From Odiellus spinosus (taxonomy: Eukaryota > Arthropoda > Arachnida > Opiliones > Phalangiidae), in NCBI GenBank assembly GCA_963920705.1, contig CAWUCO010000219.1:868001-932000 (forward strand): a stretch of 64,000 nucleotides of DNA. The letters are read 5' to 3'. Below are positions 3,491 through 64,000 of this stretch, in pieces; position 1 is the first letter of the stretch, and every line of letters begins with the position of its first letter. Position numbers and translations under genes: made by a program. A model generated the notes under the pieces. The model searched no databases. It saw nothing but the letters and a program-made list of their open reading frames with translations, and had not been told where the DNA came from.

Positions 3491-4844
3491 GGATGTATAC
3501 TTGTGAAATTTTTGGATCTATACTTGGGAAATTTTTGGATCTATACTTGGGAAATTTTTGGATCTATTCATGGGAAATTTTTGGATATATACTTGGGAAA
3601 TTTTTCTTACTATACTTGGGAAATTTTTCGATCTATACTTGGGAAATTTTTCGATCTATACTTGGAAAATTTTTCGATCTATACTTGGGAAATTTTTCGA
3701 TCTATACTTTTGAAATTTTTCGATCTATACTTGGGAAATTTTTCGATCTATACTTGGGAAATTTTTGAATCTCTACTTGGGAAATTTTTGAATCTCTACT
3801 TGGGAAATTTTTGGACTATACTTGGGAAATTTTTGGATCTATGCTTGGGAAATTTTTGAATCTATACTTGGGAAATTTTTGGATCTATACTTGGGAAATT
3901 TTTGGATCTATACTTGGGAAATTTTTGGATCTATACTTGGGAAATTTTTGGATGTATACTTGGAAAATTTTTGGATCTATACTTGGGAAATTTTTGAATC
4001 TATACTTGGGAAATTTTTGGATCTATACTTGGGAAATTTTTGGATGTATACTTGGGAAATTTTTGGATCTATACTTGGGAAATTTTTGGATCTATACTTG
4101 GGAAATTTTTCGATCTATACTTGGGAAATTTTTGAATCTATACTTGGGAAATTTTTGGATCTATACTTGGGAAATTTTTGGATGTATACTTGGGAAATTT
4201 TTGGATCTATACTTGGGAAATTTTTGGATCTATACTTGGGAAATTTTTCGATCTATACTTGGGAAATTTTTGAATCTATACTTGGGAAATTTTTGAATCT
4301 ATACTTGGGAAATATTTGGACATATACTTGGGAAATTTTTGAATCTATACTTGGGAAATTTTTCGATCTATACTTGGGAAATTTTTCGATCTATACTTGG
4401 GAAATATTTGGATCTATACTTGGGAAATTTTTGGATCTATACTTGGGAAATATTTGGATCTATACTTGGGAAATTTTTGGATCTATACTTGGGAAATTTT
4501 GGATCTATACTTTTGAAATTTTTCGATCTATACTTGGAAAATTTTGGATCTATACTTGGAAAATTTTTCGATCTATACTAGGGAAATTTTTGGATGTATA
4601 CTTGTGAAATTTTTGGATCTATACTTGGGAAATTTTTGGATCTATAATTGGGAAATTTTGGATCTATACTTGGGAAATTTTTCGATCTATACTTGGAAAA
4701 TTTTTGGATCTATGCTTGGGAAATTTTTGGATCTACACTTGTTAAATTTTTGGATGTATACTTGTGAAATTTTTGGATCTATACTTGGGAAATTTTTGGA
4801 TCTATACTTGGGAAATTTTTGGACCTATACTTGGGAAATTTTTG
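3491..4844 (+). repeat. Block A continuation, ancestral to the 40 kb and 46 kb units
   Basis: This stretch carries the same marker order as block A and continues into GGATCTATACTTTTG and CTTGTTAAA variants near 4507, 4740 and 4945. Those rare variants reappear in the same order near 40,277, 40,510 and 40,715 (offset 35,770) and again about 6,009 bp further on. It is satellite only. Confidence 0.8.
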
Positions 4845-6290
4845 GATCTATACTTGGGAAATTTTTCGATCTATACTTGGGAAATTTTTGGATCTATACT
4901 TGGGAAATTTTTGGATCTATACTTGGGAAATTTTTGGATCTATACTTGTTAAATTTTTGGATCTATACTTGGGAAATTTTGGATCTATACTTGGGAAATT
5001 TTTCGATCTATACTTGGAAAATTTTTCGATCTATGCTTGGGAAATTTTTTGATCTATATTGGGAAATTTTTGGATGTATACTTGTGAAATTTTTGGATCT
5101 ATACTTGGGAAATTTTTGGATCTATACTTGGGAAATTTTTGGATCTATTCATGGGAAATTTTTGGATTTATACTTGGGAAATTTTTCTTACTATACTTGG
5201 GAAATTTTTCGATCTATACTTGGGAAATTTTTCGATCTATACTTGGAAAATTTTTGGATCTATACTTGGGAAATTTTTCGATCTATACTTGGGAAATTTT
5301 TCGATCTATACTTGGGAAATTTTTGGATCTATTCATGGGAAATTTTTGGATTTATACTTGGCAAATTTTTCTTACTATACTTGGGAAATTTTTCGATCTA
5401 TACTTGGGAAATTTTTCGATCTATACTTGGAAAATTTTTGGATCTATACTTGGGAAATTTTTCGATCTATACTTGGGAAATTTTTCGATCTATACTTGGG
5501 AAATTTTTCGATCTATACTTGGGAAATTTTTGAATCTCTACTTGGGAAATTTTTGGATCTATACTTGGGAAATTTTTCGATCTATACTTGGGAAATTTTT
5601 GGATCTATACTTGGGAAATTTTTGGATCTATACTTGGGAAATTTTTGGATCTATACTTGTTAAATTTTTGGATCTATACTTGGGAAATTTTGGATCTATA
5701 CTTGGGAAATTTTTCGATCTATACTTGGAAAATTTTTCGATCTATGCTTGGGAAATTTTTTGATCTATATTGGGAAATTTTTGGATGTATACTTGTGAAA
5801 TTTTTGGATCTATACTTGGGAAATTTTTGGATCTATACTTGGGAAATTTTTGGATCTATTCATGGGAAATTTTTGGATTTATACTTGGGAAATTTTTCTT
5901 ACTATACTTGGGAAATTTTTCGATCTATACTTGGGAAATTTTTCGATCTATACTTGGAAAATTTTTGGATCTATACTTGGGAAATTTTTCGATCTATACT
6001 TGGGAAATTTTTCGATCTATACTTGGGAAATTTTTCGATCTATACTTGGGAAATTTTTGGATCTATTCATGGGAAATTTTTGGATTTATACTTGGCAAAT
6101 TTTTCTTACTATACTTGGGAAATTTTTCGATCTATACTTGGGAAATTTTTCGATCTATACTTGGAAAATTTTTGGATCTATACTTGGGAAATTTTTCGAT
6201 CTATACTTGGGAAATTTTTCGATCTATACTTGGGAAATTTTTCGATCTATACTTGGGAAATTTTTGAATCTCTACTTGGGAAATTTTTGA
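4845..6290 (+). repeat. 711-bp tandem duplication
   Basis: Unit 1 (4845-5555) and unit 2 (5556 onward) share two rare landmarks at an offset of 711: CTTGTTAAA at 4945 and 5656, and GATCTATATTGGG at 5051 and 5762. The unit is 31 monomers with two 22-mers. Both units carry a paired TTCATGGG trimer whose second member has CTTGGCAAA. That second trimer sits 734 bp apart, so one monomer was gained in unit 2. Confidence 0.85.
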
Positions 6291-6739
6291 ATCTCTACTT
6301 GGGAAATTTTTGGACTATACTTGGGAAATTTTTGGATCTATGCTTGGGAAATTTTTGAATCTATACTTGGGAAATTTTTGGATCTATACTTGGGAAATTT
6401 TTGGATCTATACTTGGGAAATTTTTGGATCTGTACTTGGGAAATTTTTGGATGTATACTTGGAAAATTTTTGGATCTATACTTGGGAAGTTTTTGAATCT
6501 ATACTTGGGAAATTTTTGGATCTATACTTGGGAAATTTTTGGATGTATACTTGGGAAATTTTTGGATCTATACTTGGGAAATTTTTGGATCTATACTTGG
6601 GAAATTTTTCGATCTATACTTGGGAAATTTTTGGACCTATACTTGGGAAATTTTTGAATCTATACTTGGGAAATTTTTCGATCTATACTTGGGAAATTTT
6701 TCGATCTATACTTGGGAAATTTTTGGATCTATACTTGGG

Positions 6740-9700
6740 AAATTTTTGGATCTATACTTGGGAAATATTTGGATCTATACTTGGGAAATTTTTGGATCTA
6801 TACTTGGGAAATTTTGGATCTATACTTTTGAAATTTTTCGATCTATACTTGGAAAATTTTGTATATATACTTGGAAAATTTTTCGATCTATACTAGGGAA
6901 ATTTTTGGATGTATACTTGTGAAATTTTTGGATCTATACTTGGGAAATTTTTGGATCTATACTTGGGAAATTTTGGATCTATACTTGGGAAATTTTTCGA
7001 TCTATACTTGGAAAATTTTTCGATCTATGCTTGGGAAATTTTTGGATCTACACTTGGGAAATTTTTGGATGTATACTTGTGAAATTTTTGGATCTATACT
7101 TGGGAAATTTTTGGATCTATACTTGGGAAATTTTTGGACCTATACTTGGGAAATTTTTGGATCTATACTTGGGAAATTTTTGGATCTATACTTGGGAAAT
7201 TTTTGGATCTATACTTGGGAAATTTTTGGATCTATACTTGGGAAATTTTTGGATCTATACTTGGGAAATTTTGGATCTATACTTGGGAAATTTTTCGATC
7301 TATACTTGGAAAATTTTTCGATCTATGCTTTTGAAATTTTTGGATCTATACTTGGGAAATTTTTGGATGTATACTTGTGAAATTTTTGGATCTATTCATG
7401 GGAAATTTTTGGATTTATACTTGGGAAATTTTTGATCTATGCTTGGGAAATTTTTGGATCTATACTTGGGAAATTTTTGGATGTATACTTGTGAAATTTT
7501 TGGATCTATACTTGGGAAATTTTTGGATCTATACTTGGGAAATTTTTGGATCTATTCATGGGAAATTTTTGGATATATACTTGGGAAATGTTTCTTACTA
7601 TACTTGGGAAATTTTTCGATCTATACTTGGGAAATTTTTCGATCTATACTTGGAAAATTTTTGGATCTATACTTGGGAAATTTTTCGATCTATACTTGGG
7701 AAATTTTTCGATCTATACTTGGGAAATTTTTCGATCTATACTTGGGAAATTTTTGAATCTCTACTTGGGAAATTTTTGAATCTCTACTTGGGAAATTTTT
7801 GGACTATACTTGGGAAATTTTTGGATCTATGCTTGGGAAATTTTTGAATCTATACTTGGGAAATTTTTGGATCTATACTTGGGAAATTTTTGGATCTATA
7901 CTTGGGAAATTTTTGGATGTATACTTGGAAAATTTTTGGATCTATACTTGGGAAATTTTTGAATCTATACTTGGGAAATTTTTGGATCTATACTTGGGAA
8001 ATTTTTGGATGTATACTTGGGAAATTTTTGGATCTATACTTGGGAAATTTTTGGATCTATACTTGGGAAATTTTTGAATCTATACTTGGGAAATTTTTGG
8101 ACCTATACTTGGGAAATTTTTGAATCTATACTTGGGAAATTTTTCGATCTATACTTGGGAAATTTTTCGATCTATACTTGGGAAATTTTTCGATCTATAC
8201 TTGGGAAATTTTTGAATCTCTACTTGGGAAATTTTTGAATCTCTACTTGGGAAGTTTTTGGACTATACTTGGGAAATTTTTGGATCTATGCTTGGGAAAT
8301 TTTTGAATCTATACTTGGAAATTTTTGGATCTATACTTGGGAAATTTTTGGATCTATACTTGGGAAATTTTTGGATCTATACTTGGGAAATTTTTGGATG
8401 TATACTTGGAAAATTTTTGGATCTATACTTGGGAAATTTTTGAATCTATACTTGGGAAATTTTTGGATCTATACTTGGGAAATTTTTGGATGTATACTTG
8501 GGAAATTTTTGGATCTATACTTGGGAAATATTTGGATCTATACTTGGGAAATTTTTGGATCTATACTTGGGAAATTTTGGATATATACTTTTGAAATTTT
8601 TCGATCTATACTTGGAAAATTTTGTATATATACTTGGAAAATTTTTCGATCTATACTAGGGGAATTTTTGGATGTATACTTGTGAAATTTTTGGATCTAT
8701 ACTTGGGAAATTTTTGGATCTATACTTGGGAAATTTTGGATCTATACTTGGGAAATTTTTCGATCTATACTTGGGAAATTTTTGAATCTCTACTTGGGAA
8801 ATTTTTGAATCTCTACTTGGGAAATTTTTGGACTATACTTGGGAAATTTTTGGATCTATGCTTGGGAAATTTTTGAATCTATACTTGGGAAATTTTTGGA
8901 TCTATACTTGGGAAATTTTTGGATCTATACTTGGGAAATTTTTGGATGTATACTTGGAAAATTTTTGGATCTATACTTGGGAAATTTTTGAATCTATACT
9001 TGGGAAATTTTTGGATCTATACTTGGGAAATTTTTGGATGTATACTTGGGAAATTTTTGGATCTATACTTGGGAAATTTTTGGATCTATACTTGGGAAAT
9101 TTTTGAATCTATACTTGGGAAATTTTTGGACCTATACTTGGGAAATTTTTGAATCTATACTTGGGAAATTTTTCGATCTATACTTGGGAAATTTTTCGAT
9201 CTATACTTGGGAAATTTTTCGATCTATACTTGGGAAATTTTTGAATCTCTACTTGGGAAATTTTTGAATCTCTACTTGGGAAGTTTTTGGACTATACTTG
9301 GGAAATTTTTGGATCTATGCTTGGGAAATTTTTGAATCTATACTTGGAAATTTTTGGATCTATACTTGGGAAATTTTTGGATCTATACTTGGGAAATTTT
9401 TGGATCTATACTTGGGAAATTTTTGGATGTATACTTGGAAAATTTTTGGATCTATACTTGGGAAATTTTTGAATCTATACTTGTGAAATTTTTGGATCTA
9501 TACTTGGGAAATTTTTGGATGTATACTTGGGAAATTTTTGGATCTATACTTGGGAAATATTTGGATCTATACTTGGGAAATTTTTGGATCTATACTTGGG
9601 AAATTTTGGATCTATACTTTTGAAATTTTTCGATCTATACTTGGAAAATTTTGTATATATACTTGGAAAATTTTTCGATCTATACTAGGGAAATTTTTGG

Positions 9701-11311
9701 ATGTATACTTGTGAAATTTTTGGATCTATACTTGGGAAATTTTTGGATCTATACTTGGGAAATTTTGGATCTATACTTGGGAAATTTTTCGATCTATACT
9801 TGGAAAATTTTTCGATCTATGCTTGGGAAATTTTTGGATCTACACTTGGGAAATTTTTGGATGTATACTTGTGAAATTTTTTGATCTATACTTGGGAAAT
9901 TTTTGGATCTATACTTGGGAAATTTTTGGACCTATACTTGGGAAATTTTTGGATCTATACTTGGGAAATTTTTGGATCTATACTTGGGAAATTTTTGGAT
10001 CTATACTTGGGAAATTTTTGGATCTATACTTGGGAAATTTTTGGATCTATACTTGGGAAATTTTGGATCTATACTTGGGAAATTTTTCGATCTATACTTG
10101 GAAAATTTTTCGATCTATGCTTTTGAAATTTTTGGATCTATACTTGGGAAATTTTTGGATGTATACTTGTGAAATTTTTGGATCTATTCATGGGAAATTT
10201 TTGGATTTATACTTGGGAAATTTTTGATCTATGCTTGGGAAATTTTTGGATCTATACTTGGGAAATTTTTGGATGTATACTTGTGAAATTTTTGGATCTA
10301 TACTTGGGAAATTTTTGGATCTATACTTGGGAAATTTTTGGATCTATTCATGGGAAATTTTTGGATATATACTTGGGAAATGTTTCTTACTATACTTGGG
10401 AAATTTTTCGATCTATACTTGGGAAATTTTTCGATCTATACTTGGAAAATTTTTGGATCTATACTTGGGAAATTTTTCGATCTATACTTGGGAAATTTTT
10501 CGATCTATACTTGGGAAATTTTTCGATCTATACTTGGGAAATTTTTGAATCTCTACTTGGGAAATTTTTGAATCTCTACTTGGGAAATTTTTGGACTATA
10601 CTTGGGAAATTTTTGGATCTATGCTTGGGAAATTTTTGAATCTATACTTGGGAAATTTTTGGATCTATACTTGGGAAATTTTTGGATCTATACTTGGGAA
10701 ATTTTTGGATGTATACTTGGAAAATTTTTGGATCTATACTTGGGAAATTTTTGAATCTATACTTGGGAAATTTTTGGATCTATACTTGGGAAATTTTTGG
10801 ATGTATACTTGGGAAATTTTTGGATCTATACTTGGGAAATTTTTGGATCTATACTTGGGAAATTTTTGAATCTATACTTGGGAAATTTTTGGACCTATAC
10901 TTGGGAAATTTTTGAATCTATACTTGGGAAATTTTTCGATCTATACTTGGGAAATTTTTCGATCTATACTTGGGAAATTTTTCGATCTATACTTGGGAAA
11001 TTTTTGAATCTCTACTTGGGAAATTTTTGAATCTCTACTTGGGAAGTTTTTGGACTATACTTGGGAAATTTTTGGATCTATGCTTGGGAAATTTTTGAAT
11101 CTATACTTGGAAATTTTTGGATCTATACTTGGGAAATTTTTGGATCTATACTTGGGAAATTTTTGGATCTATACTTGGGAAATTTTTGGATGTATACTTG
11201 GAAAATTTTTGGATCTATACTTGGGAAATTTTTGAATCTATACTTGGGAAATTTTTGGATCTATACTTGGGAAATTTTTGGATGTATACTTGGGAAATTT
11301 TTGGATCTATA
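6740..11311 (+). repeat. 2,792-bp tandem duplication
   Basis: Copy 1 spans about 6740-9531 and copy 2 about 9532-11311, which is partial. Shared landmarks at an offset of 2,792 include GTATATATAC at 6861 and 9653, the GGACTATAC markers at 7801 and 10593, and a paired TTCATGGG trimer. Counting 22-mers between 7799 and 10591 gives 14, matching 122 x 23 - 14 exactly. Confidence 0.87.
7728..9785 (+). repeat. 1,029-bp tandem duplication nested in the 2.8-kb unit
   Basis: Unit 1 (7728-8756) and unit 2 (8757-9785) match at an offset of 1,029, which is 45 monomers with six 22-mers (counted). Shared rare variants are the shortened CTTGGAAATTTTT monomer near 8316 and 9345 and GTATATATAC near 8622 and 9653. 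The junction of the copies, near 8756, is the point where a P9=C monomer is followed directly by GAATCTCTAC. Confidence 0.87.
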
Positions 11312-11417
11312 CTTGGGAAATTTTTGGATCTATACTTGGGAAATTTTTGAATCTATACTTGGGAAATTTTTGGACCTATACTTGGGAAATTTTTGAATCT
11401 ATACTTGGGAAATTTTT

Positions 11418-12930
11418 CGATTTATACTTGGGAAATTTTTCGATCTATACTTGGGAAATTTTTCGATCTATTCTTGGGAAATTTTTCGATCTATACTTGG
11501 GAAATTTTTCGATCTATACTTGGGAAATTTTTCGATCTATACTTGGGAAATTTTTCGATCTATACTTGGGAAATTTTTTGATCTATACTTGGGCAATTTT
11601 TCGATCTGTACTTGGGAAATTTTTCGATCTGTACTTGGGAAATTTTCGATCTATACTTGGAACATTTTTCGATCTATACTTGGGAAATTTTTCGATCTAT
11701 ACTTGGGAAATTTTTCGATCTATTCTTGGGAAATTTTTCGATCTATACTTGGGAAATTTTTCGATCTATACTTGGGAAATTTTTCGATCTATACTTGGGA
11801 AATTTTTCGATCTATTCTTGGGAAATTTTTCGATCTATACTTGGGAAATTTTTCGATCTATACTTGGGCAATTTTTCGATCTGTACTTGGGAAATTTTTC
11901 GATCTATTCTTGGAAAATTTTTCGATCTATTCTTGGAAAATTTTTCGATCTATACTTGGGAAATTTTTCGATCTATACTTGGGAAATTTTTGAATCTCTA
12001 CTTGGGAAATTTTTGAATCTCTACTTGGAAAATTTTTGAATCTCTACTTGGGAAATTTTTGAATCTCTTCTTGGGAAATTTTTGAATTTCTACTTGGGAA
12101 ATTTTACGATCTATACTTGGGAAATTTTTCGATCTATACTTGGGAAATTTTTCGATCTATACTTGGGAAATTTTTGGATCTATACTTGGGAAATTTTTGA
12201 ATCTCTACTTGGGAAATTTTTGAATCTCTACTTGGGAAATTTTTGAATCTCTTCTTGGGAAATTTTTGAATCTCTACTTTGGAAATTTTTGAATTTCTAC
12301 CTGGGAAATTTTTCGATCTATACTTGGGAAATTTTTCGATCTATACTTGGGCAATTTTTCGATCAGTACTTGGGAAATTTTTCGATCTGTACTTGGGAAA
12401 TTTTTCGATCTATTCTTGGAAAATTTTTCGATCTATACTTGGGAAATTTTTCGATCTATACTTGGGAAATTTTTGAATCTCTACTTGGGAAATTTTTGAA
12501 TCTCTACTTGGAAAATTTTTGAATCTCTACTTGGGAAATTTTTGAATCTCTTCTTGGGAAATTTTTGAATTTCTACTTGGGAAATTTTACGATCTATACT
12601 TGGGAAATTTTTCGATCTATACTTGGGAAATTTTTCGATCTATACTTGGGAAATTTTTCGATCTATACTTGGGAAATTTTTCGATCTATACTTGGGAAAT
12701 TTTTCGATCTATACTTGGGAAATTTTTCGATCTATTCTTGGGAAATTTTTCGATCTATACTTGGGAAATTTTTCGATCTATACTTGGGCAATTTTTCGAT
12801 CAGTACTTGGGAAATTTTTCGATCTGTACTTGGGAAATTTTTCGATCTATTCTTGGAAAATTTTTCGATCTATACTTGGGAAATTTTTCGATCTATACTT
12901 GGGAAATTTTTGAATCTCTACTTGGGAAAT
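11418..12930 (+). repeat. P9=C subfamily domain, left part (block B)
   Basis: Monomer composition changes abruptly here. Nearly every copy has C at P9 (TTTTTCGATC), mixed with GAATCTCTAC runs and variants scarcely seen elsewhere: TATTCTTGGG, CTGTACTTGG, CAGTACTTGG, GGGCAATTTTT, GAATTTCTAC and ATTTTACGATC. The G-type monomers (GGATC) that dominate elsewhere are nearly absent. Confidence 0.9.
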
Positions 12931-13553
12931 TTTTGGATCTATACTTGGGAAATTTTTGGATGTATACTTGGGAAATTTTTGGATCTATACTTGGGAAATT
13001 TTTGGATCTATACTTGGGAAATTTTTGAATCTATACTTGGGAAATTTTTGGACCTATACTTGGGAAATTTTTGAATCTATACTTGGGAAATTTTTCGATC
13101 TATACTTGGGAAATTTTTCGATCTATACTTGGGAAATTTTTCGATCTATACTTGGGAAATTTTTGAATCTCTACTTGGGAAATTTTTGAATCTCTACTTG
13201 GGAAGTTTTTGGACTATACTTGGGAAATTTTTGGATCTATGCTTGGGAAATTTTTGAATCTATACTTGGAAATTTTTGGATCTATACTTGGGAAATTTTT
13301 GGATCTATACTTGGGAAATTTTTGGATCTATACTTGGGAAATTTTTGGATGTATACTTGGAAAATTTTTGGATCTATACTTGGGAAATTTTTGAATCTAT
13401 ACTTGGGAAATTTTTGGATCTATACTTGGGAAATTTTTGGATGTATACTTGGGAAATTTTTGGATCTATACTTGGGAAATTTTTGGATCTATACTTGGGA
13501 AATTTTTGGACCTATACTTGGGAAATTTTTGAATCTATACTTGGGAAATTTTT
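12931..13553 (+). repeat. A-type segment inside the P9=C domain
   Basis: This segment returns to mixed GGATC monomers and matches about 10,775-11,417 at an offset of 2,159, falling to 2,136 after loss of one monomer near 13,500. It shows that the P9=C domain was duplicated together with its left flank as a unit of about 2.15 kb. Confidence 0.85.
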
Positions 13554-16380
13554 CGATTTATACTTGGGAAATTTTTCGATCTATACTTGGGAAATTTTTC
13601 GATCTATTCTTGGGAAATTTTTCGATCTATACTTGGGAAATTTTTCGATCTATACTTGGGAAATTTTTCGATCTATACTTGGGAAATTTTTCGATCTATA
13701 CTTGGGAAATTTTTTGATCTATACTTGGGCAATTTTTCGATCTGTACTTGGGAAATTTTTCGATCTGTACTTGGGAAATTTTCGATCTATACTTGGAACA
13801 TTTTTCGATCTATACTTGGGAAATTTTTCGATCTATACTTGGGAAATTTTTCGATCTATTCTTGGGAAATTTTTCGATCTATACTTGGGAAATTTTTCGA
13901 TCTATACTTGGGAAATTTTTCGATCTATACTTGGGAAATTTTTCGATCTATTCTTGGGAAATTTTTCGATCTATACTTGGGAAATTTTTCGATCTATACT
14001 TGGGCAATTTTTCGATCTGTACTTGGGAAATTTTTCGATCTGTACTTGGGAAATTTTTCGATCTATACTTGGAAAATTTTTCGATCTATACTTGGGAAAT
14101 TTTTCGATCTATACTTGGGAAATTTTTGGATCTATACTTGGGAAATTTTTGAATCTCTACTTGGGAAATTTTTGAATCTCTACTTGGGAAATTTTTGAAT
14201 CTCTACTTGGGAAATTTTTGAATCTCTTCTTGGGAAATTTTTGAATCTCTACTTTGGAAATTTTTGAATTTCTACCTGGGAAATTTTTCGATCTATACTT
14301 GGGAAATTTTTCGATCTATACTTGGGCAATTTTTCGATCAGTACTTGGGAAATTTTTCGATCTGTACTTGGGAAATTTTTCGATCTATTCTTGGAAAATT
14401 TTTCGATCTATACTTGGGAAATTTTTCGATCTATACTTGGGAAATTTTTGAATCTCTACTTGGGAAATTTTTGAATCTCTACTTGGAAAATTTTTGAATC
14501 TCTACTTGGGAAATTTTTGAATCTCTTCTTGGGAAATTTTTGAATTTCTACTTGGGAAATTTTACGATCTATACTTGGGAAATTTTTCGATCTATACTTG
14601 GGAAATTTTTCGATCTATACTTGGGAAATTTTTCGATCTATACTTGGGAAATTTTTCGATCTATACTTGGGAAATTTTTCGATCTATACTTGGGAAATTT
14701 TTCGATCTATTCTTGGGAAATTTTTCGATCTATACTTGGGAAATTTTTCGATCTATACTTGGGCAATTTTTCGATCAGTACTTGGGAAATTTTTCGATCT
14801 GTACTTGGGAAATTTTTCGATCTATTCTTGGAAAATTTTTCGATCTATTCTTGGGAAATTTTTCGATCTATACTTGGGAAATTTTTGAATCTCTACTTGG
14901 GAAATTTTTGAATCTCTACTTGGGAAATTTTTGAATCTCTACTTGGGAAATTTTTGAATCTCTACTTGGGAAATTTTTGAATCTCTACTTGGGAAATTTT
15001 TGAATCTCTACTTGGAAAATTTTTGAATCTCTACTTGGGAAATTTTTGAATCTCTTCTTGGGAAATTTTTGAATTTCTACTTGGGAAATTTTACGATCTA
15101 TACTTGGGAAATTTTTCGATCTATACTTGGGAAATTTTTCGATCTATACTTGGGAAATTTTTCGATCTATACTTGGGAAATTTTTCGATCTATACTTGGG
15201 AAATTTTTCGATCTATACTTGGGAAATTTTTCGATCTATTCTTGGGAAATTTTTCGATCTATACTTGGGAAATTTTTCGATCTATACTTGGGCAATTTTT
15301 CGATCAGTACTTGGGAAATTTTTCGATCTGTACTTGGGAAATTTTTCGATCTATTCTTGGAAAATTTTTCGATCTATTCTTGGGAAATTTTTCGATCTAT
15401 ACTTGGGAAATTTTTGAATCTCTACTTGGGAAATTTTTGAATCTCTACTTGGGAAATTTTTGAATCTCTACTTGGGAAATTTTTGAATCTCTACTTGGGA
15501 AATTTTTGAATCTCTACTTGGGAAATTTTTGAATCTCTACTTGGAAAATTTTTGAATCTCTACTTGGGAAATTTTTGAATCTCTTCTTGGGAAATTTTTG
15601 AATTTCTACTTGGGAAATTTTACGATCTATACTTGGGAAATTTTTCGATCTATACTTGGGAAATTTTTCGATCTATACTTGGGAAATTTTTCGATCTATA
15701 CTTGGGAAATTTTTCGATCTATACTTGGGAAATTTTTCGATCTATACTTGGGAAATTTTTCGATCTATTCTTGGGAAATTTTTCGATCTATACTTGGGAA
15801 ATTTTTCGATCTATACTTGGGCAATTTTTCGATCAGTACTTGGGAAATTTTTCGATCTGTACTTGAGAAATTTTTCGATCTATTCTTGGAAAATTTTTCG
15901 ATCTATACTTGGGAAATTTTTCGATCTATACTTGGGCAATTTTTCGATCAGTACTTGGGAAATTTTTCGATCTGTACTTGAGAAATTTTTCGATCTATTC
16001 TTGGAAAATTTTTCGATCTATACTTGGGAAATTTTTCGATCTATACTTGGGAAATTTTTGAATCTCTACTTGGGAAATTTTTGAATCTCTACTTGGAAAA
16101 TTTTTGAATTTCTACTTGGGAAATTTTACGATCTATACTTGGGAAATTTTTCGATCTAAACTTGGGAAATTTTTCGATCTATACTTGGGAAATTTTTCGA
16201 TCTATACTTGGGAAATTTTTCGATCTATACTTAGGAAATTTTTCGATCTATACTTGCGAAATTTTTCGATCTGTACTTGGGAAATTTCTCGATATATACT
16301 TGGGAAATTTTTCGATCTATACTTGGGAAATTTTTCGATCTATTCTTGGGAAATTTTTCGATCTATACTTGGGAAATTTT
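13554..16380 (+). repeat. P9=C subfamily domain, right part (block B)
   Basis: This is the second copy of the C-rich domain. CGATTTATAC opens both parts, at 11,418 and 13,554 (offset 2,136). Later parts match the left domain at an offset of 1,975, the difference of 161 being seven monomers lost. The domain ends at 16,381, where GGATC monomers resume after a 22-mer. Confidence 0.88.
14542..16105 (+). repeat. 529-bp HOR (23 x 23 bp) in tandem
   Basis: The marker GAATTTCTAC followed by ATTTTACGATC occurs at 14,542, 15,071, 15,600 and 16,106. The first two intervals are exactly 529 bp, which is 23 full-length monomers with no 22-mer. The third is 506 bp (22 monomers) and is internally rearranged. 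Earlier single copies of the marker lie at 12,084 and 12,567, 483 bp apart (21 monomers). Confidence 0.92.
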
Positions 16381-38100: not shown

Positions 38101-38429
38101 TTGGGAAATTTTTGGATCTATACTTGGGAAATTTTTGAATCTATACTTGGGAAATTTTTCGATCTATACTTGGAAAATTTTTGGATCTATACTTGGGAAA
38201 TTTTTCGATCTATACTTGGGAAATTTTTCGATCTATACTTGGGAAATTTTTCGATCTATACTTGGGAAATTTTTGGATCTATACTTGTGAAATTTTTCTA
38301 TCTATACTTGGAAAATTTTTGGATCTATGCTTGGGAAATTTTTGGATCTATACTTGGGAAATTTTTGGATGTATACTTGTGAAATTTTTGGATCTATACT
38401 TGGGAAATTTTTGGATCTATACTTGGGAA

Positions 38430-50697: not shown

Positions 50698-51750
50698 ATT
50701 TTGGATCTATACTTGGGAAATTTTTCGATCTATACTTGGAAAATTTTTCGATCTATGCTTGGGAAATTTTTGGATCTACACTTGGGAAATTTTTGGATGT
50801 ATACTTGTGAAATTTTTGGATCTATACTTCTGAAATTTTTGGATCTATACTTGGGAAATTTTTGGACCTATACTTGGGAAATTTTTGGATCTATACTTGG
50901 GAAATTTTTCGATCTATACTTGGGAAATTTTTGGATCTATACTTGGGAAATTTTTGGATCTATACTTGGGAAATTTTTGGATCTATAATTGGGAAATATT
51001 TGGATCTATACTTGGGAAATTTTAGGATCTATACTTGGGAAATTTTGGATCTATACTTGGGAAATTTTTCGATCTATACTTGGAAAATTTTGGATCTATA
51101 CTTGGAAAATTTTTCGATCTATCCTAGGGAAATTTTTGGATGTATACTTGTGAAATTTTTGGATCTATACTTGGGAAATTTTTGGATCTATACTTGGGAA
51201 ATTTTGGATCTATACTTGGGAAATTTTTCGATCTATACTTGGAAAATTTTTCGATCTATGCTTGGGAAATTTTTGGATCTACACTTGGGAAATTTTTGGA
51301 TGTATACTTGTGAAATTTTTGGATCTATACTTGGGAAATTTTGGGATCTATACTTGGGAAATTTTTGGACCTATACTTGGGAAATTTTTGGATCTATACT
51401 TGGGAAATTTTTCGATCTATACTTGGGAAATTTTTGGATCTATACTTGGGAAATTTTTGGATCTATACTTGGGAAATTTTTGGATCTATACTTGGGAAAT
51501 TTTTGGATCTATACTTGGGAAATTTTGGATCTATACTTGGGAAATTTTTCGATCTATACTTGGAAAATTTTTCGATCTATGCTTGGGAAATTTTTGGATC
51601 TATACTTGGGAAATTTTTGGATGTATACTTGTGAAATTTTTGGATCAATACTTGGGAAATTTTTGGATCTATACTTGGGAAATTTTTGGATCTATTCATG
51701 GGAAATTTTTGGATTTATACTTGGGAAATTTTTCTTACTATACTTGGGAA
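50698..51750 (+). repeat. Block C' (copy of the 16.4-17.5 kb segment)
   Basis: The segment continues directly from A'' into the block C pattern (offset 34,322) and carries the same rare variants: TACTTCTGAAA near 50,827, CTATAATTGGG near 50,984 and ATTTTAGGATC near 51,022. Past about 51,790 two monomers are inserted relative to block C. Confidence 0.87.
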
Positions 51751-54700
51751 ATTTTTCGATCTATACTTGGGAAATTTTTGGATCTATACTTGGAAAATTT
51801 TTCGATCTATACTTGGGAAATTTTTGGATCTATACTTGGAAAATTTTTCGATCTATGCTTGGGAAATTTTTGGATCTATACTTGGGAAATTTTTGGATCT
51901 ATACTTGGGAAATTTTTGGATCTATACTTGGGAAATATTTGGATCTATACTTGGGAAATTTTTGGATCTATACTTGGGAAATTTTGGATCTATACTTGGG
52001 AAATTTTTCGATCTATACTTGGAAAATTTTGGATCTATACTTGGAAAATTTTTCGATCTATACTAGGGAAATTTTTGGATGTATACTTGTGAAATTTTTG
52101 GATCTATACTTGGGAAATTTTTGGATCTATACTTGGGAAATTTTGGATCTATACTTGGGAAATTTTTCGATCTATACTTGGAAAATTTTTCGATCTATGC
52201 TTGGGAAATTTTTGGATCTACACTTGGGAAATTTTTGGATGTATACTTGTGAAATTTTTGGATCTATACTTGGGAAATTTTTGGATCTATACTTGGGAAA
52301 TTTTTGGACCTATACTTGGGAAATTTTTGGATCTATACTTGGGAAATTTTTCGATCTATACTTGGGAAATTTTTGGATCTATACTTGGGAAATTTTTGGA
52401 TCTATACTTGGGAAATTTTGGATCTATACTTGGGAAATATTTCGATCTATACTTGGAAAATTTTTCGATCTATGCTTGGGAAATTTTTGGATCTATACTT
52501 GGGAAATTTTTTAATGTATACTTGTGAAATTTTTGGATCTATACTTGGGAAATTTTTGGATCTATACTTGGGAAATTTTTGGATCTATTCATGGGAAATT
52601 TTTGGATTTATACTTGGGAAATTTTTCTTACTATACTTGGGAAATTTTTCGATCTATACTTGGGAAATTTTTCGATCTATACTTGGAAAATTTTTGGATC
52701 TATACTTGGGAAATTTTTCGATCTATACTTGGGAAATTTTTCGATCTATACTTGGGAAATTTTTCGATCTATACTTGGGAAATTTTTGAATCTCTACTTG
52801 GGAAATTTTTGAATCTCTACTTGGGAAATTTTTGGACTATACTTGGGAAATTTTTGGATCTATGCTTGGGAAATTTTTGAATCTATACTTGGGAAATTTT
52901 TGGATCTATACTTGGGAAATTTTTGGATCTATACTTGGGAAATTTTTGGATCTATACTTGGGAAATTTTTGGATGTATACTTGGAAAATTTTTGGATCTA
53001 TACTTGGGAAATTTTTGAATCTATACTTGGGAAATTTTTGGATCTATACTTGGGAAATTTTTGGATGTATACTTGGGAAATTTTTGGATCTATACTTGGG
53101 AAATTTTTCGATCTATACTTGGGAAATTTTTGGATCTATACTTGGGAAATTTTTGAATCTATACTTGGGAAATTTTTTAATCTATACTTGGGAAATTTTT
53201 CGATCTATACTTGGGAAATTTTTCGATCTATACTTGGGAAATTTTTGGATCTATACTTGGGAAATTTTTGGATCTTTACTTGGGAAATTTTTGGATCTAT
53301 ACTTGGGAAATTTTGGATCTATACTTGGGAAATTTTTCGATCTATACTTGGAAAATTTTGGATCTATACTTGGAAAATTTTTCGATCTATACTAGGGAAA
53401 TTTTTTGATGTATACTTGTGAAATTTTTGGATCTATACTTGGTAAATTTTTGGATCTATACTTGGGAAATTTTGGATCTATACTTGGGAAATTTTTGGAT
53501 CTATACTTGGGAAATTTTTGAATCTATACTTGGGAAATTTTTGGATCTATACTTGGGAAATTTTTCGATCTATACTTGGGAAATTTTTCGATCTATACTT
53601 GGGAAATTTTTGGATCTATACTTGGGAAATTTTTGAATCTATACTTGGGAAATTTTTGGACCTATACTTGGGAAATTTTTGGATCTATACTTGGGAAATT
53701 TTTCGATCTATACTTGGAAAATTTTTCGATCTATGCTTGGGAAATTTTTGGATCTACACTTGGGAAATTTTTGGATGTATACTTGTGAAATTTTTGGATC
53801 TATACTTGGGAAATTTTTCGATCTATACTTGGGAAATTTTTCGATCTATACTTGGGAAATTTTTCGATCTATACTTGGGAAATTTTTGGATCTATACTTG
53901 GGAAATTTTTGGATCTATACTTGGGAAATTTTTCGATCTATACTTGGGAAATTTTGGATCTATACTTGGGAAATTTTTCGATCTATACTTGGGAAATTTT
54001 TGGATCTATACTTGGAAAATTTTTCGATCTATACTTGGGAAATTTTTGGATCTATACTTGGAAAATTTTTCGATCTATGCTTGGGAAATTTTTGGATCTA
54101 TACTTGGGAAATTTTTGGATCTATACTTGGGAAATTTTTGGATCTATACTTGGGAAATATTTGGATCTATACTTGGGAAATTTTTGGATCTATACTTGGG
54201 AAATTTTGGATCTATACTTGGGAAATTTTTCGATCTATACTTGGAAAATTTTGGATCTATACTTGGAAAATTTTTCGATCTATACTAGGGAAATTTTTGG
54301 ATGTATACTTGTGAAATTTTTGGATCTATACTTGGGAAATTTTTGGATCTATACTTGGGAAATTATGGATCTATACTTGGGAAATTTTTCGATCTATACT
54401 TGGAAAATTTTTCGATCTATGCTTGGGAAATTTTTGGATCTACACTTGGGAAATTTTTGGATGTATACTTGTGAAATTTTTGGATCTATACTTGGGAAAT
54501 TTTTGGATCTATACTTGGGAAATTTTTGGACCTATACTTGGGAAATTTTTGGATCTATACTTGGGAAATTTTTCGATCTATACTTGGGAAATTTTTGGAT
54601 CTATACTTGGGAAATTTTTGGATCTATACTTGGGAAATTTTGGATCTATACTTGGGAAATATTTCGATCTATACTTGGAAAATTTTTCAATCTATGCTTG

Positions 54701-55390
54701 GGAAATTTTTGGATCTACACTTGGGAAATTTTTTAATGTATACTTGTGAAATTTTTGGATCTATACTTGGGAAATTTTTGGATCTATACTTGGGAAATTT
54801 TTGGATCTATTCATGGGAAATTTTTGGATTTATACTTGGGAAATTTTTCTTACTATACTTGGGAAATTTTTCGATCTATACTTGGGAAATTTTTCGATCT
54901 ATACTTGGAAAATTTTTGGATCTATACTTGGGAAATTTTTCGATCTATACTTGGGAAATTTTTCGATCTATACTTGGGAAATTTTTCGATCTATACTTGG
55001 GAAATTTTTGAATCTCTACTTGGGAAATTTTTGGACTATACTTGGGAAATTTTTGGATCTATGCTTGGGAAATTTTTGAATCTATACTTGGGAAATTTTT
55101 GGATCTATACTTGGGAAATTTTTGGATCTATACTTGGGAAATTTTTGGATCTATACTTGGGAAATTTTTGGATGTATACTTGGAAAATTTTTGGATCTAT
55201 ACTTGGGAAATTTTTGAATCTATACTTGGGAAATTTTTGGATCTATACTTGGGAAATTTTTGGATGTATACTTGGGAAATTTTTGGATCTATACTTGGGA
55301 AATTTTTCGATCTATACTTGGGAAATTTATGGATCTATACTTGGGAAATTTTTGAATCTATACTTGGGAAATTTTTGAATCTATACTTGG
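51750..55390 (+). repeat. 2,222-bp tandem duplication
   Basis: Landmarks repeat at 2,222 bp: GGAAATATTTGG near 51,935 and 54,157, the TTCATGGG trimer at 52,581 and 54,803, and a TTTTTTAATGTATAC monomer near 52,510 and 54,732. The length fits 97 monomers with nine 22-mers. In copy 2 one GAATCTCTAC monomer is missing near 55,020, so the offset drops to 2,199. Confidence 0.83.
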
Positions 55391-57075
55391 GAAATTTTTC
55401 GATCTATACTTGGGAAATTTTTCGATCTATACTTGGGAAATTTTTCGATCTATACTTGGGAAATTTTTGGATCTATACTTGGGAAATTTTTGGATCTATA
55501 CTTGGGAAATTTTTCGATCTATACTTGGGAAATTTTTCGATCTATACTTGGGAAATTTTTCGATCTATACTTGGGAAATTTTTGAATCTCTACTTGGGAA
55601 ATTTTTGGACTATACTTGGGAAATTTTTGGATCTATGCTTGGGAAATTTTTGAATCTATACTTGGGAAATTTTTGGATCTATACTTGGGAAATTTTTGGA
55701 TCTATACTTGGGAAATTTTTGGATCTATACTTGGGAAATTTTTGGATGTATACTTGGAAAATTTTTGGATCTATACTTGGGAAATTTTTGAATCTATACT
55801 TGGGAAATTTTTGGATCTATACTTGGGAAATTTTTGGATGTATACTTGGGAAATTTTTGGATCTATACTTGGGAAATTTTTCGATCTATACTTGGGAAAT
55901 TTTTGGATCTATACTTGGGAAATTTTTCGATCTATACTTGGGAAATTTTTGGATCTATACTTGGGAAATTTTTGGATCTATACTTGGGAAATTTTGGATC
56001 TATACTTGGGAAATTTTTCGATCTATACTTGGAAAATTTTGGATCTATACTTGGAAAATTTTTCGATCTATACTAGGGAAATTTTTTGATGTATACTTGT
56101 GAAATTTTTGGATCTATACTTGGTAAATTTTTGGATCTATACTTGGGAAATTTTGGATCTATACTTGGGAAATTTTTGGATCTATACTTGGGAAATTTTT
56201 CGATCTATACTTGGGAAATTTTTGGATCTATACTTGGGAAATTTTTGAATCTATACTTGGGAAATTTTTGAATCTATACTTGGGAAATTTTTCGATCTAT
56301 ACTTGGGAAATTTTTCGATCTATACTTGGGAAATTTTTCGATCTATACTTGGGAAATTTTTGGATCTATACTTGGGAAATTTTTGGATCTATACTTGGGA
56401 AATTTTTCGATCTATACTTGGGAAATTTTTCGATCTATACTTGGGAAATTTTTCGATCTATACTTGGGAAATTTTTGAATCTCTACTTGGGAAATTTTTG
56501 GACTATACTTGGGAAATTTTTGGATCTATGCTTGGGAAATTTTTGAATCTATACTTGGGAAATTTTTGGATCTATACTTGGGAAATTTTTGGATCTATAC
56601 TTGGGAAATTTTTGGATCTATACTTGGGAAATTTTTGGATGTATACTTGGAAAATTTTTGGATCTATACTTGGGAAATTTTTGAATCTATACTTGGGAAA
56701 TTTTTGGATCTATACTTGGGAAATTTTTGGATGTATACTTGGGAAATTTTTGGATCTATACTTGGGAAATTTTTCGATCTATACTTGGGAAATTTTTCGA
56801 TCTATACTTGGGAAATTTTTCGATCTATACTTGGGAAATTTTTGGATCTATACTTGGGAAATTTTTGGATCTATACTTGGGAAATTTTGGATCTATACTT
56901 GGGAAATTTTTCGATCTATACTTGGAAAATTTTGGATCTATACTTGGAAAATTTTTCGATCTATACTAGGGAAATTTTTTGATGTATACTTGTGAAATTT
57001 TTGGATCTATACTTGGTAAATTTTTGGATCTATACTTGGGAAATTTTGGATCTATACTTGGGAAATTTTTGGATC
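55280..57075 (+). repeat. 893-bp tandem duplication
   Basis: Copy 1 (55,280-56,172) and copy 2 (56,173-57,075) match at 893 bp, which is 39 monomers with four 22-mers (counted). The GGACTATAC marker sits at 55,608 and 56,501. Both copies have only one GAATCTCTAC monomer before it, a trait shared with the copy near 55,034. Confidence 0.86.
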
Positions 57076-59107
57076 TATACTTGGGAAATTTTTGAATCTA
57101 TACTTGGGAAATTTTTGGATCTATACTTGGGAAATTTTTCGATCTATACTTGGGAAATTTTTCGATCTATACTTGGGAAATTTTTGGATCTATACTTGGG
57201 AAATTTTTGAATCTATACTTGGGAAATTTTTGGACCTATACTTGGGAAATTTTTGGATCTATACTTGGGAAATTTTTCGATCTATACTTGGAAAATTTTT
57301 CGATCTATGCTTGGGAAATTTTTGGATCTACACTTGGGAAATTTTTGGATGTATACTTGTGAAATTTTTGGATCTATACTTGGGAAATTTTTGGATCTAT
57401 ACTTGGGAAATTTTTGAATCTATACTTGGGAAATTTTTGGACCTATACTTGGGAAATTTTTGGATCTATACTTGGGAAATTTTTCGATCTATACTTGGGA
57501 AATTTTTCGATCTATACTTGGGAAATTTTTCGATCTATACTTGGGAAATTTTTGGATCTATACTTGGGAAATTTTTGGATCTATACTTGGGAAATTTTTC
57601 GATCTATACTTGGGAAATTTTGGATCTATACTTGGGAAATTTTTCGATCTATACTTGGAACATTTTGGATCTATACTTGGGAAATTTTTCGATCTATACT
57701 TGGAAAATTTTTGGATCTATGCTTGGGAAGTTTTTGGATCTATACTTGGGAAATTTTTGAATCTCTACTTGGGAAATTTTTGAATCTCTACTTGGGAAAT
57801 TTTTGGACTATACTTGGGAAATTTTTGGATCTATGCTTGGGAAATTTTTGAATCTATACTTGGGAAATTTTTGGATCTATACTTGGGAAATTTTTGGATC
57901 TATACTTGGGAAATTTTTGGATCTATACTTGGGAAATTTTTGGATGTATACTTGGAAAATTTTTGGATCTATACTTGGGAAATTTTTGAATCTATACTTG
58001 GGAAATTTTTGGATCTATACTTGGGAAATTTTTGGATGTACACTTGGGAAATTTTTGGATCTATACTTGGGAAATTTTTCGATCTATACTTGGGAAATTT
58101 TTGGATCTATACTTGGGAAATTTTTGAATCTATACTTGGGAAATTTTTGAATCTATACTTGGGAAATTTTTCGATCTATACTTGGGAAATTTTTCGATCT
58201 ATACTTGGGAAATTTTTGGATCTATACTTGGGAAATTTTGGATCTATACTTGGGAAATTTTTCGATCTATACTTGGAAAATTTTGGATCTATACTTGGAA
58301 AATTTTTCGATCTATACTAGGGAAATTTTTTGATGTATACTTGTGAAATTTTTGGATCTATACTTGGTAAATTTTTGGATCTATACTTGGGAAATTTTGG
58401 ATCTATACTTGGGAAATTTTTGGATCTATACTTGGGAAATTTTTGAATCTATACTTGGGAAATTTTTGGATCTATACTTGGGAAATTTTTCGATCTATAC
58501 TTGGGAAATTTTTCGATCTATACTTGGGAAATTTTTGGATCTATACTTGGGAAATTTTTGAATCTATACTTGGGAAATTTTTGGACCTATACTTGGGAAA
58601 TTTTTGGATCTATACTTGGGAAATTTTTCGATCTATACTTGGAAAATTTTTCGATCTATGCTTGGGAAATTTTTGGATCTACACTTGGGAAATTTTTGGA
58701 TGTATACTTGTGAAATTTTTGGATCTATACTTGGGAAATTTTTGGATCTATACTTGGGAAATTTTTGAATCTATACTTGGGAAATTTTTGGACCTATACT
58801 TGGGAAATTTTTGGATCTATACTTGGGAAATTTTTCGATCTATACTTGGGAAATTTTTCGATCTATACTTGGGAAATTTTTCGATCTATACTTGGGAAAT
58901 TTTTGGATCTATACTTGGGAAATTTTTGGATCTATACTTGGGAAATTTTTCGATCTATACTTGGGAAATTTTGGATCTATACTTGGGAAATTTTTCGATC
59001 TATACTTGGAACATTTTGGATCTATACTTGGGAAATTTTTCGATCTATACTTGGAAAATTTTTGGATCTATGCTTGGGAAGTTTTTGGATCTATACTTGG
59101 GAAATTT
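56860..59107 (+). repeat. 1,351-bp tandem duplication (block D')
   Basis: CTTGGTAAA, CTACACTTGG and CTTGGAACATTTT markers repeat at 1,351 bp (59 monomers with six 22-mers, counted). The content matches block D near 23.9-24.8 kb (offsets 33,111 and 34,462), so this is a further copy of D-type sequence. Confidence 0.85.
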
Positions 59108-59825
59108 TTGGATGTATAATTGTGAAATTTTTGGATCTATACTTGGGAAATGTTTCGATCTATACTTGGAAAATTTTTCGATCTATGCTTGGAAAATTTT
59201 TGGATCTATACTTGGGAAATTTTTGGATGTATACCTGTGAAATTTTTGGATCTATACTTGGGAAATTTTTGGATCTATTCATGGGAAATTTTTGGATTTA
59301 TACTTGGGAAATTTTTCGTACTATACTTGGGAAATTTTTCGATCTATACTTGGGAAATTTTTGGATCTATACTTGGGAAATTTTTGAATCTATACTTGGG
59401 AAATTTTTGGACCTATACTTGGGAAATTTTTGGATCTATACTTGGGAAATTTTTCGATCTATACTTGGGAAATTTTTCGATCTATACTTGGGAAATTTTT
59501 CGATCTATACTTGGGAAATTTTTGGATCTATACTTGGGAAATTTTTGGATCTATACTTGGGAAATTTTTCGATCTATACTTGGGAAATTTTGGATCTATA
59601 CTTGGGAAATTTTTCGATCTATACTTGGAACATTTTGGATCTATACTTGGGAAATTTTTCGATCTATACTTGGAAAATTTTTGGATCTATGCTTGGGAAG
59701 TTTTTGGATCTATACTTGGGAAATTTTTGGATGTATACTTGTGAAATTTTTGGATCTATACTTGGGAAATGTTTCGATCTATACTTGGAAAATTTTTCGA
59801 TCTATGCTTGGGAAATTTTTGGATC
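58745..59825 (+). repeat. 619-bp tandem duplication
   Basis: A cassette from GAATC, GGACC monomers through CTTGGAACATTTT to GGAAATGTTTCG repeats at 619 bp (27 monomers with two 22-mers): copy 1 about 58,745-59,363, copy 2 about 59,364-59,825. Copy 1 has a private CTATAATTGTG variant near 59,117. Confidence 0.82.
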
Positions 59826-62800
59826 TATACTTGGAAAATTTTTCGATCTATACTAGGGAAATTTTTTGATGTATACTTGTGAAATTTTTGGATCTATACT
59901 TGGGAAATTTTTGAATCTATACTTGGGAAATTTTTGAATCTATACTTGGGAAATTTTTCGATCTATACTTGGGAAATTTTTCGATCTATACTTGGGAAAT
60001 TTTTGGATCTATACTTGGGAAATTTTTGGATCTATACTTGGGAAATTTTTGGATCTATACTTGGGAAATTTTGGATCTATACTTGGGAAATTTTTCGATC
60101 TATACTTGGAAAATTTTGGATCTATACTTGGAAAATTTTTCGATCTATACTAGGGAAATTTTTTGATGTATACTTGTGAAATTTTTGGATCTATACTTGG
60201 TAAATTTTTGGATCTATACTTGGGAAATTTTGGATCTATACTTGGGAAATTTTTGGATCTATACTTGGGAAATTTTTGAATCTATACTTGGGAAATTTTT
60301 GGATCTATACTTGGGAAATTTTTCGATCTATACTTGGGAAATTTTTCGATCTATACTTGGGAAATTTTTGGATCTATACTTGGGAAATTTTTGAATCTAT
60401 ACTTGGGAAATTTTTGGACCTATACTTGGGAAATTTTTGGATCTATACTTGGGAAATTTTTCGATCTATACTTGGAAAATTTTTCGATCTATGCTTGGGA
60501 AATTTTTGGATCTACACTTGGGAAATTTTTGGATGTATACTTGTGAAATTTTTGGATCTATACTTGGGAAATTTTTGGATCTATACTTGGGAAATTTTTG
60601 AATCTATACTTGGGAAATTTTTGGACCTATACTTGGGAAATTTTTGGATCTATACTTGGGAATTTTTTCGATCTATACTTGGAAATTTTTCGATCTATAC
60701 TTGGGAAATTTTTGGATCTATACTTGGGAAATTTTTGGATCTATACTTGGGAAATTTTTGGATCTATACTTGGGAAATTTTTCGATCTATACTTGGGAAA
60801 TTTTGGATCTATACTTGGGAAATTTTTCGATCTATACTTGGAACATTTTGGATCTATACTTGGGAAATTTTTCGATCTATACTTGGAAAATTTTTGGATC
60901 TATGCTTGGGAAGTTTTTGGATCTATACTTGGGAAATTTTTGGATGTATACTTGTGAAATTTTTGGATCTATACTTGGGAAATGTTTCGATCTATACTTG
61001 GAAAATTTTTCGATCTATGCTTGGGAAATTTTTGGATCTATACTTGGGAAATTTTTGGATGTATACCTGTGAAATTTTTGGATCTATACTTGGGAAATTT
61101 TTGGATCTATTCATGGGAAATTTTTGGATTTATACTTGGGAAATTTTTCGTACTATACTTGGGAAATTTTTCGATCTATACTTGGGAAATTTTTGGATCT
61201 ATACTTGGGAAATTTTTAAATCTATACTTGGGAAATTTTTGGATCTATACTTGGGAAATTTTTTGATCTATACTTGGGAAATTTTTGGATCTATACTAGG
61301 GAAATTTTTCGATCTATACTTGGGAAATTTTTCGATCTATACTTGGGAAATTTTTCGATCTATACTTGGAAAATTTTTCGATCTATGCTTGGGAAATTTT
61401 TGGATCTACACTTGAGAAATTTTTGGATGTATACTTGTGAAATTTTTGGATCTATACTTGGGAAATTTTTGGATCTATACTTGGGAAATTTTTGGATCTA
61501 TACTTGGGAAATTTTTGGATCTATACTTGGGAAATTTTTGGATCTATACTTGGGAAATTTTTGGATCTATACTTGGGAAATTTTTCGATCTATACTTGGA
61601 AAATTTTTCGATCTATGCTTGGGAAATTTTTGGATCTATACTTGGGAAATTTTTACATGTATACTTGTGAAATTTTTGGATCTATACTTGGGAAATTTTT
61701 GGATCTATACTTGGGAAATTTTTGGATCTATACTTGGGAAATTTTTGGATCTATACTTGGGAAATTTTTGGATCTATACTTGGGAAATTTTTGGATCTAT
61801 ACTTGGGAAATTTTTCGATCTATACTTGGAAAATTTTTCGATCTATGCTTGGGAAATTTTTGGATCTATACTTGGGAAATTTTTACATGTATACTTGTGA
61901 AATTTTTGGATCTATACTTGGGAAATTTTTGGATCTATACTTGGAAAATTTTTGGATCTATGCTTGGGAAATTTTTGGATCTATACTTGGGAAATTTTTG
62001 GATGTATACTTGTGAAATTTTTGGATCTATACTTGGGAAATTTTTGGATCTATACTTGGGAAATTTTTGGATCTATTCATGGGAAATTTTTGGATTTATA
62101 CTTGGGAAATTTTTCTTACTATACTTGGGAAATTTTTTGGTCTATACTTGGGAAATTTTTCGATCTATACTTGGAAAATTTTTGGATCTATACTTGGGAA
62201 ATTTTTCGATCTATACTTGGGAAATTTTTCGATCTATACTTGGAAAATTTTTCGATCTATGCTTGGGAAATTTTTGGATCTATACTTGGGAAATTTTTGG
62301 ATGTATACTTGTGAAATTTTTGGATCTATACTTGGGAAATTTTTGGATCTATACTTGGGAAATTTTTGAATCTACACTTGGGAAATTTTTGGACCTATAC
62401 TTGGGAAAATTTTGGATCTATACTTGTGAAATATTTCGATCTATACTTGGAAAATTTTTCGATCTATGCTTGGGAAATTTTTGGATCTATACTTGGGAAA
62501 TTTTTGGATGTATACTTGTGAAATTTTTGGATCTATACTTGGGAAATTTTTGGATCTATACTTGGGAAATTTTTACATGTATACTTGTGAAATTTTTGGA
62601 TCTATACTTGGGAAATTTTTGGATCTATACTTGGGAAATTTTTGAATCTATACTTGGGAAATTTTTGAACCTATACTTGGGAAAATTTTGGATCTATACT
62701 TGTGAAATTTTTCGATCTATACTTGGAAAATTTTTGGATCTATGCTTGGGAAATTTTTGGATCTATACTTGGGAAATTTTTGGATGTATACCTGTGAAAT

Positions 62801-64000
62801 TTTTGGATCTATACTTGGGAAATTTTTGGATCTATTCATGGGAAATTTTTGGATTTATACTTGGGAAATTTTTCGTACTATACTTGGGAAATTTTTCGAT
62901 CTATACTTGGGAAATTTTTGGATCTATACTTGGGAAATTTTTAAATCTATACTTGGGAAATTTTTGGATCTATACTTGGGAAATTTTTTGATCTATACTT
63001 GGGAAATTTTTGGATCTATACTAGGGAAATTTTTCGATCTATACTTGGGAAATTTTTCGATCTATACTTGGGAAATTTTTGGATCTATACTTGGGAAATT
63101 TTTGGATCTATACTTGGGAAATTTTTCGATCTATACTTGGGAAATTTTTGGATCTATACTTGGGAAATTTTGGATCTATACTTGGGAAATTTTTCGATCT
63201 ATACTTGGAAAATTTTTCGATCTATGCTTGGGAAATTTTTGGATCTACACTTGAGAAATTTTTGGATGTATACTTGTGAAATTTTTGGATCTATACTTGG
63301 GAAATTTTTGGATCTATACTTGGGAAATTTTTGGATCTATACTTGGGAAATTTTTGGATCTATACTTGGGAAATTTTTGGATCTATACTTGGGAAATTTT
63401 TGGATCTATACTTGGGAAATTTTTCGATCTATACTTGGAAAATTTTTCGATCTATGCTTGGGAAATTTTTGGATCTATACTTGGGAAATTTTTACATGTA
63501 TACTTGTGAAATTTTTGGATCTATACTTGGGAAATTTTTGGATCTATACTTGGGAAATTTTTGGATCTATACTTGGGAAATTTTTGGATCTATACTTGGG
63601 AAATTTTTGGATCTATACTTGGGAAATTTTTGGATCTATACTTGGGAAATTTTTCGATCTATACTTGGAAAATTTTTCGATCTATGCTTGGGAAATTTTT
63701 GGATCTATACTTGGGAAATTTTTACATGTATACTTGTGAAATTTTTGGATCTATACTTGGGAAATTTTTGAATCTATACTTGGGAAATTTTTGGACCTAT
63801 ACTTGGGAAAATTTTGGATCTATACTTGTGAAATTTTTCGATCTATACTTGGAAAATTTTTGGATCTATGCTTGGGAAATTTTTGGATCTATACTTGGGA
63901 AATTTTTGGATGTATACTTGTGAAATTTTTGGATCTATACTTGGGAAATTTTTGGATCTATACTTGGGAAATTTTTGGATCTATTCATGGGAAATTTTTG
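59826..64000 (+). repeat. Block D' distal part, cut by window end
   Basis: This part repeats the order of 23.8-26.4 kb. It has CTTGGTAAA near 60,200, CTTGGAACATTTT near 60,840, then the 230-bp decamer pairs at 61,425 and 63,264, which lie 1,839 bp apart. The copy near 61.3 kb lacks 114 bp (five monomers less one base) relative to that near 63.0 kb. The last bases begin another TTCATGGG trimer. Confidence 0.82.

Follow-up and report, generated by a model that had tools for sequence, protein, structure and literature searches.

A rearranged duplicate of about 35 kb within a 23-bp satellite array of Odiellus spinosus

Does a satellite array carry an order of its own on a scale of about 35 kb, and if so, does that order amount to a repeated unit? 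The question was raised for a locus of Odiellus spinosus by a reading made from the letters only, according to which rare landmarks recur in the same order in the second half of the 64,000-nucleotide stretch analysed here (hereafter, the window) and a third level of organisation exists above monomer and HOR. That proposal is partly supported. What stands is a rearranged duplicate of about 35 kb that is colinear and compatible with one age; what does not stand is periodicity, given fewer than two turns, and a regular HOR beneath the duplicate. In the reading favoured here, to which we assign a probability of roughly 0.7, a single large duplication in register, later reworked by duplications and deletions on a local scale, is enough to explain the window.

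The entire window is a single uninterrupted array of a 23-bp monomer with the consensus GGATCTATACTTGGGAAATTTTT, arranged head to tail in one orientation on the + strand from position 1 to position 64,000, as revealed by TRF, in which one row covers all of it, and by monomer decomposition. As a long head-to-tail array of one monomer it is satellite DNA. Decomposition yielded 2,791 monomers (2,592 of 23 bp, 198 of 22 bp and one of 21 bp, plus a 1-base end) belonging to 133 types, a count that includes the end base. Partial monomers were absent from the decomposition except at the window end, such that the joints stay in monomer register, and the window contains no N. The array is AT-rich, with a GC content of 0.29-0.31 over the 64 kb, and strand-biased, with a GC skew of 0.14 to 0.37 along its full length and the minimum at 14-16 kb, in the block designated B below. 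Monomers vary mostly at positions 1, 2, 5, 7, 9, 14 and 15, and the final eight bases, AAATTTTT, are each conserved in at least 98% of the 23-bp monomers. The 22-bp monomers mostly lack one terminal T or are of the GGACTATAC type; they occupy fixed places in the variant order, which indicates that they are inherited rather than scattered errors. Types seen only once account for 44 monomers of the window (45 rows with the end base), and five of the 44 are clustered within 161 bp (16,152-16,312) at the right edge of block B.

A search with positions 1-8,000, one eighth of the window, gave no match in plasmid and phage collections, and a 21-base core of the monomer gave none in the genome contigs collection. 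This core matched one viral contig, at a 5.3-kb locus that lacks any 23-bp tandem repeat, and the match was taken as chance. The papers covered, searched by monomer strings and descriptive terms, yielded no description of the monomer, though one may still exist. The window contains 120 ORFs of at least 150 aa, the longest of 550 aa, and every one of them is on the + strand, because all three forward frames of the consensus are free of stops. They were rejected as genes, being a by-product of this stop-free consensus; in arrays of this kind such ORFs can give rise to false gene calls. No Rfam family was found in the window at the gathering score, a dimer of the monomer folded no better than its shuffles (z -0.58), and a core resembling the CENP-B box had no match in the window, a result that does not decide centromeric status.

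The six offsets between 34 and 37 kb that had been quoted for the recurring landmarks are all real. Checked base by base, with exact runs of at least 100 bp counted, each has a longest run of between 329 and 923 bp: runs of 186, 315 and 343 bp at offset 35,770 (4.1-5.0 kb), of 253, 465 and 101 bp at 35,037 (6.6-7.4 kb), of 441, 128 and 557 bp at 34,322 (16.4-17.5 kb), of 401 and 542 bp at 34,094 (18.7-19.7 kb), of 923 bp at 34,462 (23.7-24.7 kb) and of 281 and 329 bp at 36,203 (25.1-25.7 kb). Long matches are also seen at other offsets, for example 724 bp at 36,295 and 720 bp at 40,852, and non-unique 200-mers start at 71% of the positions, as would be expected if an array this repetitive recurred by chance at any offset and the landmarks near 35 kb had been picked by hand. 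Because of the matches at other offsets, the pattern was tested without choosing offsets. The share of positions with an exact copy of their 150-mer within 1.5 kb of the lag tested was 0.34 at 2 kb, 0.29 at 5.5-6 kb and 0.04 at 14-17.5 kb, with a far peak of 0.289 at 35.5 kb. A second far hump, of 0.242 at 40.5 kb, is what a doubling of block A in a step of 6 kb would give. Words of 20 monomers with a partner at no more than two differences numbered 0 of 2,773 at distances of 15-22 kb versus 473 of 2,667 at 33-38.5 kb. Between the two halves of the window, the best chain of exactly matching, colinear monomers was 575 monomers long. When the second half was shuffled in blocks of 40, 80 or 130 monomers, with 300 shuffles each, the mean chains were 332, 379 and 420 monomers, and 575 was reached in none of the 300 shuffles at any block size, that is, in 0 of 900, although the longest blocks leave a modest margin (z 3.1, best shuffle 559). 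The far matches are thus colinear, as had been claimed, and the block shuffles together with the word partners refute chance as the source of the whole colinearity, leaving it with a negligible probability.

A gapped alignment of the monomer strings joins 1,932-33,316 (turn 1) with 38,459-62,621 (turn 2) in 35 segments that together contain 727 monomers and 16,660 bp; the colinear stretch is 31 kb long in turn 1 and 24 kb long in turn 2. The turns differ at 63 of the 16,660 aligned bp (0.38%), and the differences are spread evenly over the segments, which is compatible with one age (dispersion p = 0.18). The block order in the window is A-B-C-(DE)-(DE)-X-A'-A''-C'-D'-E', with all blocks on the + strand. 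The sequence-only reading had given A-B-C-D-E followed by A'-A''-C'-D', an order with which the colinear alignment agrees but from which the second D-E, X and E' had been omitted. In turn 1, block A (1,932-11,463) is aligned in order with 38,459-50,612, and positions 1-1,931 are also filled by A-type repeats. It is followed by block B (11,464-16,380), present in turn 1 only, and by block C (16,381-18,693), which is aligned, with gaps, with 50,703-52,077. The D-E block occurs as a first copy at 19,518-26,416 and, as delimited by the turn alignment, a second copy at 26,417-33,315. Between the turns lies X (33,316-38,274), a local expansion of E-type repeats composed of E-type monomers and local duplications, among them tandem duplications at lags 963 and 482 and an exact 979-bp match at lag 1,608. 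Turn 2 opens with A' (38,275-45,063), which is aligned with both A and A'', and continues with A'' (45,064-50,680), placed by the turn alignment, and C' (50,681-52,787). Blocks D' and E' (52,788-64,000) are aligned with 18,694-33,316 up to position 62,621 and run off the window; they have local duplications of their own, including an 893-bp tandem duplication at 55.3-57.1 kb.

Both the turn alignment and the private monomer types confirm that B is missing from turn 2 and that A is doubled there, as the earlier reading had it. B forms a 214-monomer gap in the turn alignment, and at least eight monomer types, amounting to 67 monomers when types with six or more copies are counted, are private to it; C' directly follows A'' without B, and the private types of B are absent there. 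Block B has a 529-bp sub-repeat, with 14,434-15,336 exact at that lag. Ahead of C', turn 2 shows the usual array order except for a small gap; in turn 1 the corresponding run-up to C is replaced by B, so that it is more sparing to assume that turn 1 gained B than that turn 2 lost it. Judged from the monomer strings, B was probably gained, a preference held with moderate confidence.

Tandem duplications ranging from 230 bp to 6.9 kb are found across the window. The cleanest feature of the window, and probably the latest of its large events, is the doubling of D-E, which had escaped the sequence-only reading: a tandem duplication of 6,899 bp (19,518-33,315) whose two copies, of 301 monomers each, differ at one position (0.014%). 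If gaps of 34 and 2 monomers are left aside, A' and A'' differ at four of their 5,618 aligned bp (0.07%). The window therefore contains two colinear copies, with the monomer register kept throughout, and three levels of divergence. Their decrease from 0.38% through 0.07% to 0.014% suggests that the large duplication is the oldest event and that A was doubled before D-E, an order that gene conversion could disturb.

Homology at the breakpoints of these duplications was estimated from the length by which the match overruns the unit. In eight tandem duplications the overrun was 68, 25, 41, 43, 4, 36, 51 and 86 bp, the last value being that of D-E, and its median of 42 bp exceeded the median of 18 bp of random in-register pairs (p = 0.0035). 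This set left out three short rows at lag 207 that fell below a full unit, an array of 2.7 copies at lag 529 and rows that repeated an event already counted. Once the lag-207 rows were restored as two events of zero overrun and the smallest value was used for lag 230, p rose to 0.11. Breakpoint homology is thus suggestive but not robust, which slightly lowers the confidence in an explanation by a single duplication.

A regular HOR is not found beneath the 35-kb recurrence. In the autocorrelation of the monomer string, identity did not rise above 0.232 (chance 0.13) at any lag for which more than 200 positions were compared, and the best lag, 301 monomers, is that of the 6.9-kb duplication. The median spacing was 1.35-1.65 kb for seven of ten landmarks; the remaining three had medians of 0.95, 2.6 and 4.5 kb, and the spacings scattered widely. 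A regular HOR array was rejected on the grounds of the low autocorrelation and the scattered landmark spacing; the order is kept only in pieces. Colinear copies at about 35 kb, one of the features expected of a super-HOR, are present in two turns.

In a true super-HOR, a unit of about 35 kb, or roughly 1,500 monomers, would return again and again along the array and be homogenised as one, and its copies would resemble one another more than neighbouring parts do; the shared order of the two turns and the lag peak at 35.5 kb agree with such a unit. In a comparison of ungapped 20-monomer words over whole blocks, the local copy was closer than the 35-kb counterpart in 244 versus 133 words of A (19 ties), 214 versus 125 of C-D-E (79 ties) and 187 versus 4 of B (3 ties). 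Since ungapped words penalise whole-monomer gaps, the comparison was repeated within the aligned segments, where the balance reverses: among 242 words from the 15 of 35 aligned segments with at least 20 monomers, a set selected for alignability, the counterpart was closer in 132 and the local copy in 84, with 26 ties. Of these 84 local wins, 78 lie at 6.6-11.5 and 18.7-19.7 kb, where recent local copies are found. The outcome is mixed: the 132 words favour a super-HOR, and they count at the same time against a single duplication; the 84 words and most of the whole-block words of A and C-D-E argue in the opposite direction. Fewer than two turns fit into the 64-kb window, moreover, and the turns differ by many whole-monomer gaps in addition to B, A'' and the second D-E, all of which makes a super-HOR unlikely, although it is the foremost of the alternatives. 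An assembly artefact, in which the near-identical copies (D-E, A'/A'') or the whole of turn 2 were misassembled or two haplotypes were placed end to end, comes after it and is likewise improbable. Arrays with copies one base apart in 6,899 are hard to assemble, and turn 2, at its divergence from turn 1, might represent another haplotype. The turns differ, however, by gains and doublings of whole blocks, and they are joined through X without a break of register or an N.

The reading preferred over these alternatives starts from a large 23-bp satellite array that would have evolved by in-register tandem duplication and deletion. A segment from A to E, some tens of kilobases in length, would have been duplicated head to tail in a single founding event to give the two turns, each of which would then have been reworked separately by later, smaller events. 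In turn 1, D-E (6.9 kb) would have been doubled, the E end locally expanded into X, and B gained or substituted for the usual sequence; in turn 2 a doubling of about 6 kb would have affected block A. These events may be ascribed to exchange between misaligned copies, either by unequal sister exchange or by replication restart, two routes that are indistinguishable here. Blind duplication and deletion in register were also modelled in a toy simulation with 600 events, which was not fitted to the window and from which one array was dropped as too short. The observed far peak, which amounts to 0.27 in the measure used there, was equalled or exceeded in 38 of 40, 12 of 39 and 1 of 40 arrays with event-size exponents of 1, 1.5 and 2, respectively. 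With broad event sizes blind events match the far peak, and hence no special organising principle is required, provided that large events are not too uncommon; nor does the 35-kb spacing call for a separate function. Counting against a single duplication is the rarity of the peak under steep event sizes (exponent 2), and one 64-kb window with fewer than two turns leaves room for a repeated unit.

According to the unequal crossing-over model, satellites evolve by duplications and deletions that stay in register, range over all sizes and leave copies of different ages. The window shares with this model its in-register duplications and deletions and its copies of mixed age, and nothing found here contradicts it. 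The best reading is that of a new example of known churn, one large tandem duplication in a satellite array. The array has kept a readable order of events, from the large duplication (0.38%) through the doubling of A (0.07%) to that of D-E (0.014%), and the nested copies allow the frequency, size and homology use of satellite duplications to be measured.

Among satellites of the same monomer length, Chio, a 23-bp centromeric satellite of Chionographis japonica, is described as sharing TTCGTACGA with Chama (PMC12722358). The window resembles Chio in the 23-bp monomer and the very large array, but the Chio word TTCGTACGA had no match in the window, which was accordingly not assigned to Chio, and whereas Chio arrays often alternate in orientation, the array of the window does not within its 64 kb (PMC12722358). 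Local-nested HORs are known in human centromeres, as outlined in the HiCAT report (PMC10053651). Like the window, with its A'/A'' and its doubled D-E, they show sub-units that were amplified in tandem within a larger unit, and they differ from it in that the canonical HOR is well defined in human, whereas the middle level is irregular here (PMC10053651). For alpha-satellite, cascading HORs are described and, on the orangutan Y, a 58mer superHOR in 67 copies (PMC12428378). A long ordered series of variants, types that are repeated within the unit and copies less than 1% divergent are features that the window shares with alpha-satellite superHORs; in place of the 67 copies of the orangutan 58mer, it has less than two full turns, each of some 1,500 23-bp monomers, with unequal content (PMC12428378). 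If the 35-kb unit were truly periodic, homogenisation would act on units of more than 1,000 monomers, and a super-HOR built from a 23-bp monomer would be far larger in monomers than the 58mer to 84mer superHORs that this source describes (PMC12428378).
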